Source of the DNA: Maribacter algicola
Lineage (GTDB): Bacteria; Bacteroidota; Bacteroidia; Flavobacteriales; Flavobacteriaceae
DNA: 64,000 bases
Reading direction: 5' to 3'
Assembly (NCBI RefSeq): GCF_003933245.1
Contig: NZ_QUSX01000002.1
Span: 62,001 to 126,000, forward strand
Translations under genes and position numbers: made by a program
Shown here: positions 6,179-51,475 of the stretch, piece after piece
Layout: each line of letters opens with the position of its first letter
How positions within the stretch are numbered: position 1 is the stretch's first letter
The notes under the pieces: generated by a model
What the model was told of the DNA's origin: nothing
What the model saw: only the letters and a program-made list of their open reading frames with translations
Database searches by the model: none

Positions 6179-6243
6179 GTATAATAAGTACCACTAAAAG
6201 CAATATTTGTGGTGGATGTGCTTTTGGTGAATGGATAAATTTA
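6179..6243 (+). promoter_or_regulatory. 65-bp regulon element, copy 1 (GH2 beta-galactosidase promoter)
   Basis: The most diverged of five copies, but every spacing is kept. Element position 10 begins GTACCAC (6188), position 22 GCAAT (6200), position 33 GGTGGAT (6211), and position 58 the Bacteroidota -7-like box TAAATTTA (6236-6243). The poly-A block of the other copies is replaced by GTATAATAA. It points toward the GH2 gene and ends 91 bp before its ATG. The first GCAA half is poorly kept, so this promoter may be weaker. Confidence 0.7.
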
Positions 6244-6334
6244 TAAGTTTTAAATATTCTCTGAAGGGCCCGATTTTAAGATTATGACTTTGCTGAATCG
6301 AGTCTTTTCAAGCAACTTGCTTTAAAAAGTCTTT

Positions 6335-9300
6335 ATGAAAACATGGAATTTAATTTATATAACAACATTGGTCCTTGTTTCAAATGTTGGTGCTCAAGAA
6401 ATCCCTGATTGGGAAAACCCGGAAGTCAATGCTATTAATAGGTTAGAAGCTAGAGCGACATTTTGGCACTTTAATGAAGCTATGTTAGACCAGAAGATTA
6501 CCGCACTAGAAAACTATATCGATTTAAATGGGATATGGAAATTCAATTGGGTAACAAAACCGGCAGATAGACCAAGAGAGTTCTATAAACAAAGTTATGA
6601 TGTAAGCAATTGGAACGACATACCTGTACCATCAGATTGGCAAATGCAAGGATATGGCTATCCTATTTATACCAATATTAACTATCCGTTTCCAAAGAAT
6701 GCCCCATTTATTCCTCATGATAATAATCCTGTTGGTAGTTATAAACGCAAGTTCAACATAGATAAAACTTGGGAAGACCATAAAGTATTTATTCATTTTG
6801 GAGGCGTAAATTCGGCGTTTTATTTATGGGTCAATGGTCAAAAAGTAGGCTACAGCGAAGGCTCTAAGACTCCAGCGGAATTCGACATTAGCAATTACGT
6901 AAAAACTGGTGAAAATGACTTGGCGGTTGAGGTATATCGTTGGTGCGATGGGTCTTATTTAGAAGACCAGGATTTTTGGAGATTGAGTGGTATTGAACGT
7001 GATGTATATATATATGCCACAAAAAAAATAAGTTTTAAGGATATAAATAGTAAAGCGTCTCTTCACAGTAATTACAAGGATGGCAAACTTGAAGTTTTGG
7101 TTGAGGTTTCAAACCATACCGAAAAATCTCAAAATCAAACCATAGATATTAAACTATTGGATGGGAATGAAATCATTTTTGAAGGCTCAAAAAAGATTAA
7201 GATTGAAGGCAAAAGAAACCTAGCTACAACCTTTGTAAAGGATTTTTTGAAGGTACAGTCTTGGTCCGCGGAAATTCCCAAACTATATGATTTGCAATTA
7301 GTACTGACCGGTAACAATGGCAAACAATTGGACGCTACAAAGATTAAAATTGGATTTAGAAGTACTGAAATTAAAAATGGGCAATTATTGGTTAATGGAA
7401 AACCAATTCTTTTAAAGGGTGTAAACCGCCATGAGCATGATCCTTTAAATGGCCATGTGATCAGTAAGGAAAGTATGCTGGCGGATATTATGGATTTCAA
7501 GAAATATAATATAAATGCTGTACGAACAGCCCATTACCCCAACCATCCATTATGGTATCAGCTATGTGATCAGTATGGAATATATGTGGTTGATGAAGCT
7601 AATATAGAATCTCATGGTTATGGCTTTGAAAATGGTGTAACACTTGCCCAAGATGATATGTTTGCGGCAATGCATATGGATCGGGTTCAGCGAATGGTGA
7701 AACGGGATGTAAACCACCCTTCGATAATTTATTGGTCTTTGGGAAATGAGGGGGGCAATGGTCCAAACTTTCTGCAAGCATATGAGTGGATAAAGAATTT
7801 TGACCCTACGCGCCCGGTACATTATGAACCATCCGGAAGACCAGATCCAGAAGCCTACCAACCAAGAAATACGGATATTATAGGTTGGATGTACGAACAA
7901 ATACCCGTAATAGAAAATGATTTTTTAAAATTGGATGCCGAACTTCCTTCAGCGCAAAAAAGACCTTTTATTTGGTGCGAATACAGTCATGCCATGGGAA
8001 ATAGCAATGGAAATTTCGCTGATAATTGGGAATGGATTCGTTCAACGCCACAAGCGCAAGGCGGTTTTATTTGGGATTGGATGGACCAAGGATTACAGAA
8101 AATTTCAGAAGATGGCTTGCCATATTATGCCTATGGTGGTGATTTTGAACCTGAAGGTGTATATAACGATAATCATTATTGTGCAAATGGCATAATAGGT
8201 TCGGATAGGGAACCTCACCCCGCCGTATGGGAAATAAAAAAAGCCTATCAACCTGTACGCTTTGGACAAAAGAGCACAACAGAATATCAAGTTTTTAACG
8301 AAAATTTTTTCGTTACAACCTCAAATTACACGTTTGATTGGGTCCTTTTGGAAGATGGTCTAGTGGTTAAGAAAGAACAGCTTTCACTTGATGTTTTGGA
8401 GCCTCAAGATACCACAATATTGAATATTGATTTTAATTATGAATTTGATCGAACCAAGGAATATTTTATCAACTTCCATGTGCGCACTAGTACTGATCAA
8501 TCTTTATTAGAAAAGGATTTCATTGTGGCTCAAGATCAATTCTTAGTGCAAAAGGCCAAAAATCGTCCCGTGATTTCTACTAAAAAGAAACAGCATGTGA
8601 AAAAGCTCAAAAATGAGGAATACATTGTGTCAGGTGAGGGCTATGAATATAGATTCTCTCAAGAGGGTTACGGATTAAAGTCCATATTGTGGAGGAATCA
8701 GGAACTATTGGCAGAGCCCTTGGAAATGAGTTTTTGGCGTGCCCCAACAGATAACGACTTAGGTGCATGGAATGTATTGGTGAACCCAAAGGATTCCATA
8801 TATTATAATTGGAGAAATGCCGGTCGCATCTATGAATTAAAGGACATGAAGGTTGAAAAAGGCAGTAATAAGATGAATGGGAAACAGGTAGCCTTTACAT
8901 ACTTCTTTTTACACCCAACTATTAACACTAAGAATAAGATAAGCTATACGGTACAAAATAACGGAACGCTGGTGATTGAATCTGAATTACTTCCAGGGGA
9001 TGATTCATCTTTAACCAATATGCCTAGATATGGTATTAGGTTTGCCATACCGGGAGATTATGAAAATGTATCCTACTATGGCCGCGGTCCACACGAAAAC
9101 TACAGTGATAGGAATACAGCTGCCCATTTAGGTATGTATACCTCCAAAGTTAAGGAGTTTTATGTACCATATATTAGGCCCCAGGAAAACGGTTATAGAA
9201 CTGATGTTAGGTTTCTATCATTCACGAACGCTGGTAACTCTGGACTGAGAATTGAAGCGGAGGATGTCCTATCATTTTCTTCCCATCATAATCCATTGGA

Positions 9301-9502
9301 GGATTTTGATTATGGTAATACAAAAGGCCAACAACACACGATAGACATAGTGCCCAAGGATAAGGTATGGTTACATGTAGATTATAAACAGGTAGGAGTA
9401 GGAGGAGATGATAGTTGGAGTAAAAATGCCTTGGCCAAAGATAAATACCAGATTAATCCTAGTTTAACCAAAATGAGTTTTTCAATGTCTCCAATGAAGT
9501 AA
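6335..9502 (+). CDS. lacZ: GH2 beta-galactosidase, secreted
   Basis: 1055 residues, the usual length of LacZ-type GH2 enzymes. A signal peptide ending near VGAQ (residue 21) exports it to the periplasm. Domains in order: sugar-binding jelly roll (about 35-230), Ig-like domain, TIM barrel (about 345-640), Ig-like domain, and C-terminal beta-sandwich (about 760-1050, with [11 protein letters not shown]). The acid/base is Glu472 in SLGNEGGNG and the nucleophile Glu549 in [10 protein letters not shown]. It cleaves terminal beta-D-galactosides. Its promoter carries the same 65-bp element as the fucose and SusCD genes, and the galactonate operon lies convergently downstream, so galactose is the natural product to expect. 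Confidence 0.93.
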
Positions 9503-50435: not shown

Positions 50436-50521
50436 TTTGCTTCTATTTTGGAATAGGTTTTACTATTTCGATTATTATTTTCAGATGACTAATTTAATTT
50501 TTCACATGCGGTCATTCTTCT

Positions 50522-50836
50522 TTATTCTACGAGATATCTTTCTTCCATACCTTTTTCATGGACTCTAAATATCAATAGTTTGGCACTGTCCTCTTTTGTA
50601 AATGGTGCATGTATTTTCCTGTAAGGTACAATGAAAGTATCTCCTTTGATATAGGTCATTTCAATTGATTCTTCTTGCCAAAGACATAATGTACCTTCAA
50701 GCACATGTACAAATTCTTCGCCAGGATGCCAATGCTTTGGTAAAGCTGTGTTTGGGGGAAATTCCACGCTACTTAAAATGACTTCTTTTCCATGGACACC
50801 CTCCAGTGAAGTAGATAGTAGATTATCGAAAATCAT
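50522..50836 (-). CDS. small cupin protein
   Basis: 104 residues forming one cupin barrel: LPKHWHPGEEFVHVLEGTLCLWQ carries the His-x-His and Glu ligands, and DTFIVPYRKIHAPF the last His. No signal peptide. It is the first gene after the fifth regulon element and precedes the GH95 gene, so it likely works on or senses a product of fucoside breakdown. No closer function can be read. Confidence 0.82.
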   Translation of the reverse strand: MIFDNLLSTSLEGVHGKEVILSSVEFPPNTALPKHWHPGEEFVHVLEGTLCLWQEESIEMTYIKGDTFIVPYRKIHAPFTKEDSAKLLIFRVHEKGMEERYLVE

Positions 50837-51475
50837 AGACTATATTTTTAATAAACTGTAAAAAAATGAAATAAAAAATATCAAATTCGCAGTAAAACTA
50901 ATTTTATTACTACATAATATCCACAGTATTTATTGCTATCAATGATACTTTTTTTGCATTTAGTAGGCTTAATTCATTTGATTAGTATCATTTGGGGTGC
51001 TATAATTTTAAAACTTCTGGCTTTCGACTATTGCTTTTAAACAAACGTTTTATGCATCCAACTCCTTTTCGACCGGTGATAGATTTAAGTATATTCTTTA
51101 ATACCTAAAAGAATTAGAAAAATGTGAATAATCCTAGTTATTAGTGAGTATGAAATTATGTATATAATTGATTAGAACCGTAATGATTTTATATTGATTT
51201 CAAATACAAAATTTGATCTTATTGCAAGATTAAAAAATAGAAATTCTAACTTTTGGAGGAATTGGATTCTTTAATGCAATAGTAATCCTATTTAAACGCT
51301 TTCAGTTCATTTAAAATTAAGAAGGTTACGCAAGTGTCAAGAAGGTGGAAAATAAGCTATTTGAATTTTCAAAATTGATGATATAGGGCAGGGGTTAAAC
51401 CTTAGATATACCAATAGTAAATACTGTCACTAGTTTCTTAAGAACAGTTTTTTTTAAATGTGGCATTATTTATTT
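50837..51475. other. 639-bp intergenic region upstream of the cupin gene
   Basis: The first 120 bp carry the regulon element (50893-50957). An isolated AGTATCATT (50984-50992) follows on the opposite strand, lacking poly-A, GCAAT and -7 parts. The remainder, downstream of the histidine kinase gene, is AT-rich with no recognised gene. Confidence 0.6.
50893..50957 (-). promoter_or_regulatory. 65-bp regulon element, copy 5 (cupin-GH95 promoter)
   Basis: On the minus strand, position 1 is GCAAAAAAAGTATCAT (50957-50942), position 22 GCAAT (50936), position 33 TGTGGAT (50925) and position 58 TAGTTTTA (50900-50893). It ends 56 bp before the cupin ATG. Confidence 0.87.

Follow-up and report, generated by a model that had tools for sequence, protein, structure and literature searches.

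Why does the same 65-bp layout recur five times ahead of genes within a 64,000-nucleotide stretch of the Maribacter algicola genome (contig NZ_QUSX01000002.1, positions 62,001 to 126,000; assembly GCF_003933245.1; hereafter, the window), and which protein would act on it? A preliminary description of this DNA had taken the five copies for promoter elements of a fucose/galactose-glycan regulon and had guessed at an AraC protein as their binder. Based on the computational analysis presented here, we consider it very probable that the AraC-type protein encoded within the same locus binds the 65-bp element and activates the fucose genes together with other transcription units, with fucose as the likely signal.

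The five 65-mers of the preliminary description are present at their coordinates and on their strands (Table 1), and they align without a gap, with 23 of the 65 columns being invariant in the window (columns 1, 5, 6, 8-12, 22-26, 34, 35, 37-39, 58, 59 and 62-64). While the boxes described at positions 22, 33 and 58 hold as given, the block at position 1, said to be degenerate in the copy facing the GH2 gene, occurs as exact GCAAAAAAAGTATCAT in copies 4 and 5 only, and copies 1, 2 and 3 deviate from it with GTATAATAAGTACCAC, GTCAAAAAAGTATCAT and GCAAAAAAAGTATAGC, respectively. When a 65-column matrix was built from four copies and all window positions on both strands were ranked, the fifth copy came right behind the training copies in five of five trials. 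In coordinate order, 91, 101, 18, 167 and 56 bases separate the -7-like box from the start codon of the gene that follows.

Table 1. Element copies and the genes around them, in window coordinates (hyphenated coordinates of minus-strand features run from the 5' end).
Feature	Coordinates	Strand	Remarks
Element copy 1	6179..6243	+	most degenerate; -7-like box TAAATTTA at 6236-6243; faces GH2
Element copy 2	15967..16031	+	box TATCTTTA at 16024-16031; faces PSCyt/DUF1501 operon; kept in M. arcticus
Element copy 3	34900..34964	-	box TAGTTTTG at 34907-34900; between araC-type gene and fucose operon; kept in M. arcticus
Element copy 4	47673..47737	-	box TATTTTTG at 47680-47673; faces susC; kept in M. 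arcticus
Element copy 5	50893..50957	-	box TAGTTTTA at 50900-50893; faces cupin-GH95
GH2 (LacZ-type) glycoside hydrolase	6335..9502	+	family match
PSCyt/DUF1501 operon	16133..23402	+	PSCyt1/PSCyt2/PSD1 protein, DUF1501 protein, 371-residue protein, DUF2231-PSCyt1 protein
Oxidative fucose gene run	23523..34881	-	enzyme roles inferred from families
araC-type regulator	34970..35848	-	292 residues; C-terminal HTH_18; proposed binder of the element
susC-susD-ASPIC-ASPIC	35922..47505	-	ahead of regulator gene, same strand
susC	47505-44356	-	
susD	44332-42839	-	
Two FG-GAP/ASPIC genes	42765-39250, 39284-35922	-	
GH95	50435-48045	-	
Cupin	50836-50522	-	

The genome from which the window is taken comprises 4.11 Mb in 7 contigs. 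In the whole of it, the pattern AAAGTATCATN5GCAATN6GGTRGAT, with up to 3 mismatches, recovered exactly the five copies, and a reversed-pattern control recovered 0. A sequence-only profile built from the copies gave them 47.3-49.7 bits (these being its training sites), and with 150 of 1639 first-look candidates scored, the next-best match in the genome reached 13.9 bits at an E of 0.35 (17 matches at E <= 10). Thus, the many equal matches before unrelated genes that the preliminary description had named as evidence against a regulon were not found in the genome scan. A broader model, R3 (a profile of 48 sites), returned the same five sites and no others at E <= 0.05. All five genome-wide sites fall inside 45 kb, and the regulon is therefore a local one.

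In Maribacter arcticus DSM 23546, a member of the same genus with a regulator ortholog of 83% identity, the full 65-base layout stands before the orthologous PSCyt operon, the fucose genes and susC. Compared ungapped with their M. algicola counterparts, these copies are 94-100% identical in the key columns and 56-74% in the spacer columns, and the flanking 100 bases are 22-69% identical upstream and 56-80% downstream, the high flank identities being those of the fucose copy, where the flanks are coding. In the 60 kb of M. arcticus that were examined, neither a GH2 homolog nor a counterpart of copy 5 was found. The GH95 homolog of this species (G015:C8:302720-305099) is broken into two overlapping reading frames, with no element ahead of it.

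Across 299 genomes of the family, the regulator (E <= 1e-80) is present in 47, which represent 41 of 236 genera. At a cutoff of E <= 1e-4, with strict filters and 17 candidates scored per genome, R3 matched 46 of the 299 genomes, 42 of these being among the 47 that have the regulator and 4 among the 252 that lack it; with the genomes that trained R3 omitted, the counts were 18 of 23 and 4 of 252. In one of the four (G192), an ortholog that narrowly misses the cutoff (2.5e-79) lies some 50 bases from the site, and the site in another (G330), which precedes MacB/FtsX and has no good -7 box, looks spurious.

Among 27 held-out loci, which had not contributed to the matrix, 21 have a site scoring more than 5 bits, compared with 3 of 1620 Markov loci. 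The latter scored 36.7, 13.8 and 5.8, and since the first of these equals the scores of real sites, one weak site by itself is not proof. For 18 of these 27 loci, the top site begins within a range of -9 to +72 bases around the end of the regulator gene and is oriented away from the gene; in 10, a site lies on the other side of the gene in the opposite direction, 4 of these being directed toward a susC homolog. Of 31 sites picked by columns 1-40 alone, 21 have TAnnTTTG starting exactly at column 58, and another 4 have TAnnnTTG. The fixed distance from the upstream blocks to TAnnTTTR, which the preliminary description had stressed for the five copies, thus holds in held-out genomes as well, and this column-58 result is the clearest support for the view that a binding site and a promoter may here form one unit.

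More distant counterparts were found at 11 loci (ten genomes and one metagenome-assembled genome) whose regulators are 50-54% identical and whose regulator gene stands directly before fucD and oxidative fucose genes. At all 11, the top match of the M. algicola five-site matrix over 19-40 kb fell in the gap between regulator and fucD, the equivalent of copy 3, with two of the matches being weak (1.2 in G006 and 1.9 in G013). No gaps are needed to align these sites over the 65 columns; columns 1-13 except 8 are invariant, as are columns 58, 59 and 62-64. Change has accumulated in the proximal half, where GCAAT has become mostly GTATT and GGTRGAT mostly GGTGGTT, and profiles made from the relatives themselves are therefore needed. 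A model of the distant sites (R2) gave the M. algicola sites no more than 17.0 bits, and the M. algicola model (R1) gave the distant fucD sites no more than 19.3 bits. The M. algicola core pattern was rejected as a detector in relatives, as it yielded, in 60 genomes (59 of them relatives), 9 matches outside M. algicola and M. arcticus vs. 8 for the reversed control. Within those 60 genomes, M. algicola included, the 12 with the regulator (E below 1e-95) are also the 12 with FucD (E <= 1e-80).

Cumulatively, synteny, co-occurrence and held-out prediction support the link to the AraC protein that had originally been a guess. The C-terminal domain of the regulator matches HTH_18 (3.7e-18) and HTH_AraC (3.6e-07), which identifies it as an AraC-type helix-turn-helix (HTH) domain with relatives of solved structure, while residues 1-205 gave no Pfam match at E <= 1e-5 and no solved full-length relative was found. 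A kinase, a receiver and an AraC-type domain in one chain, the hallmark of hybrid two-component regulators, were not found in its 292 residues, which carry the HTH only. Before the second recognition helix, the M. algicola and M. arcticus regulators read GFRN and the other 11 aligned regulators GFGN or GFNN. This change parallels that in columns 23-26 of the site, as a correlation only.

From the arrangement of the conserved columns, we infer how the 65-bp element may work as an activator-dependent promoter. The predicted AraC-type binding site comprises columns 1-39 (GCAAAAAWAGTAT ... G ... GGTRG) and would extend from about -70 to -31 if TAnnTTTG is taken as the -7 box, which also sets the predicted start sites. 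Two subunits would probably bind in tandem, each through two HTHs, so that four contact blocks, beginning at columns 1, 10, 22 and 33-34, would follow each other at about one helical turn. About 20 bases separate the end of the proximal block from TAnnTTTR, the presumed -7 box of the main Bacteroidota sigma factor; from this position the block would replace the -33 element, and the bound protein could touch RNA polymerase. By position only, this is the arrangement of a class II activator, at a fixed distance and adjoining or overlapping the -33 region. In response to fucose or an early oxidation product as the likely signal, the protein would switch on the fucose operon, the susC-susD-ASPIC-araC run, cupin-GH95, GH2 and the PSCyt/DUF1501 operon. 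Because the regulator gene closes the susC run, on one strand and with gaps of no more than 73 bases (gaps of 23 and 73, an overlap of 35, then 73 bases), copy 4 would provide positive feedback.

Several observations weigh against this interpretation. The genomes are related, so that Fisher values overstate their independence; five of the 47 genomes with the regulator (G139, G201, G285, G302 and G314) have no R3 site at E <= 1e-4; near the regulator gene, a site is missing from six of the 27 held-out loci; a tandem site should show a 21-bp repeat, which is seen only weakly (among 15 offsets, 21 is the best, with an uncorrected p of 0.047); and some sites in the family precede genes without a clear fucose link. 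Moreover, G345 has sites before FucD and SusC in the absence of a close ortholog (best 38%), and in G137, of the same genus, sites precede a sulfatase and an MFS gene, again without a close ortholog. Such cases are what one would expect if another regulator, either an unlinked AraC paralog or a hybrid two-component system, bound the element and the adjacent araC-type gene were a mere neighbour. Potential candidates are at hand, as the AraC protein has, at E <= 0.001, 21 matches in the M. algicola genome and AraC-type domains are found in hybrid two-component systems, too (PMC3878776), and a second regulator travelling with the locus would be compatible with the co-occurrence. Nevertheless, the element tracks this particular ortholog (42 of 47 vs. 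4 of 252 genomes), and its placement close to the end of the regulator gene (-9 to +72 bases) in 18 of the 27 held-out loci also speaks for the neighbouring protein, which makes a bystander role improbable in our view.

We regard it as less likely still that the same protein binds the element as a repressor from which the sugar would release the genes. A repressor might likewise act at the -33 region, which the proximal block overlaps, but the site lies upstream of the -7 box, not over it, and at a fixed distance, as expected for contact with polymerase, and AraC-type sugar regulators are mostly activators. That all five copies lie within 45 kb of one contig might also be explained by recent duplication of a repeat with no regulatory role, but the spacer columns and flanks vary among the copies, and distant genomes keep the blocks and their spacing while the spacers diverge; the chance that this explanation is correct appears negligible.

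With activation by the AraC-type protein as the preferred reading, the locus offers a regulator, a 65-bp operator-promoter and a list of targets for the use of fucose, a main sugar of brown-algal fucoidan, in marine Flavobacteriaceae, and genes of unknown role (PSCyt/DUF1501, FG-GAP/ASPIC) become testable under a defined signal. The local AraC-type sugar regulon is already known as a type, and the element described here is a very rigid and well-conserved one. AraC, RhaS and XylS, local sugar activators of the AraC/XylS family, likewise have a C-terminal two-HTH domain, a gene inside the regulated sugar locus and a site beside the core promoter; unlike in those systems, the element contains the Bacteroidota -7 box and the regulator has no Pfam-recognised ligand domain. 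Searches of an open-licence library returned no paper on this regulator or element.

In Bacteroides hybrid two-component systems, an AraC-type DNA-binding domain controls susCD and glycan genes, and the sites predicted for them consist of 12-16 bp direct repeats separated by spacers of 5-9 bp, giving a period near 21 bp (PMC3878776), whereas the regulator here is a single 292-residue protein with no kinase or receiver domain. Bacteroides FucR (BT1272) is a local regulator of fucose use, as our protein is proposed to be, but it belongs to the GntR family (PMC3878776), and our regulator does not. A GntR/FCD protein encoded in the window at 15051-15779 is part of another gene run. For Halomonas and others, oxidative L-fucose loci have been described with a regulator, FucR, whose sites were predicted by comparative genomics (PMC5507952); these loci resemble ours in the pathway and in having a regulator with predicted sites, and they belong to other phyla. 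The main Bacteroidota promoter, as outlined in PMC7366714, has TAnnTTTG at -7 and TTTG near -33, with no -33 motif found in Flavobacterium johnsoniae; the element shares the -7 box (columns 58-65) and has the GGTRG block in place of the -33 box.

As to the genes behind the copies, the fucose part of the proposed fucose/galactose-glycan regulon is well supported, whereas galactose depends on the one GH2 copy. The fucose run starts with an MR_MLE enolase-fold dehydratase (FucD), GH29, SDR, FAA hydrolase, amidohydrolase and SDR genes and continues with MFS, rhaM/FucU-type mutarotase, FMN_dh (L-lactate dehydrogenase type), UPF0261, cupin and PEP_hydrolase genes. Behind susD, the two large FG-GAP/ASPIC (UnbV) proteins (35922-42765) have 1120 and 1171 residues and are encoded by overlapping genes.

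The view of the regulon as one of glycan genes does not extend to the cytochrome operon, which by annotation contains no glycan gene and whose 371-residue protein has no Pfam match. This 'planctomycete' cytochrome/DUF1501 operon is the least expected member, and it is one in few lineages only: the element precedes it in M. algicola and M. arcticus, and stands before a paralogous operon in G006 and a PSCyt3/DUF1552 operon in G264. The idea that PSCyt is a conserved core target was rejected after a scan of 30 PSCyt loci (L247-L276), taken from a longer list of matches in 55 genomes with the regulator. Among the 30, only M. arcticus has a strong site (45.5), one that helped train the matrix, and a weak one (11.4) was found at L272 (G229). 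Of the 18 full-length closest PSCyt orthologs (L247-L264), 17 have no element; in G006, the closest ortholog has none and the site precedes another PSCyt paralog. Since the closest orthologs elsewhere lack the element, its presence points to repeated local, lineage-specific recruitment and not to a core role. The function of such PSCyt genes is called unknown, and carbohydrate metabolism is suggested, in PMC5615132. We tentatively propose, as a rather doubtful possibility, that the Flavobacteriaceae fucose regulon governed by this regulator drew in modules of PSCyt/PSD proteins with DUF1501 or DUF1552 more than once; their c-type cytochrome systems would then take part in oxidizing fucose-containing sugars, before or beside the cytoplasmic pathway.

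In the near set of 12 genomes, second full-length sites occur before GH29 (G011, G023, G028 and G029) and before a PSCyt/DUF1501 operon (G006), scoring 26.8-38.0 bits with R3, with the next matches at 21.5 and 20.4 bits. A further 34 of the 89 sites that R3 marked in the family, chosen mostly away from the regulator gene, were inspected and their genes classified by manual reading. None of the 34 lies inside a kept open frame of at least 100 residues. In 14, a fucose-pathway, fucosidase or fucose-type MFS gene is among the first two downstream genes; 6 lead to susC, one of them via sigma/FecR genes, 5 to sulfatases or other glycan genes (GH97, GH116, ThuA/beta-helix) and 2 to 3-keto-disaccharide hydrolase or Gfo/Idh/MocA modules. 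The remaining 7 comprise an unknown gene, MacB/FtsX, four sites with no adjacent same-strand gene and one at a contig end.

L-lactate is an end product of the oxidative fucose pathway, and the LutA/LutB-type lactate genes found behind the element at L170:6251-8949 and L174:14100-16861, with a LUD-domain LutC-type gene also in L170, fit the pathway; the window, for its part, has the FMN_dh lactate-dehydrogenase-type gene within the fucose run. In the fucose runs of L170, L221 and L229, a GD_AH gene (galactarate/altronate-dehydratase family; L170:2724-4385, L221:5309-6970 and L229:1124-2734) takes the expected place of fucD ahead of SDR and FAA-hydrolase genes and is possibly an unrelated replacement of fuconate dehydratase. 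Finally, at L206:3168-7023 and L235:1984-6695, the element is followed by 3-keto-disaccharide hydrolase domains together with DUF7133/cytochrome c/HEAT or Gfo/Idh/MocA genes, a combination that hints at an oxidative glycoside-cleaving route.

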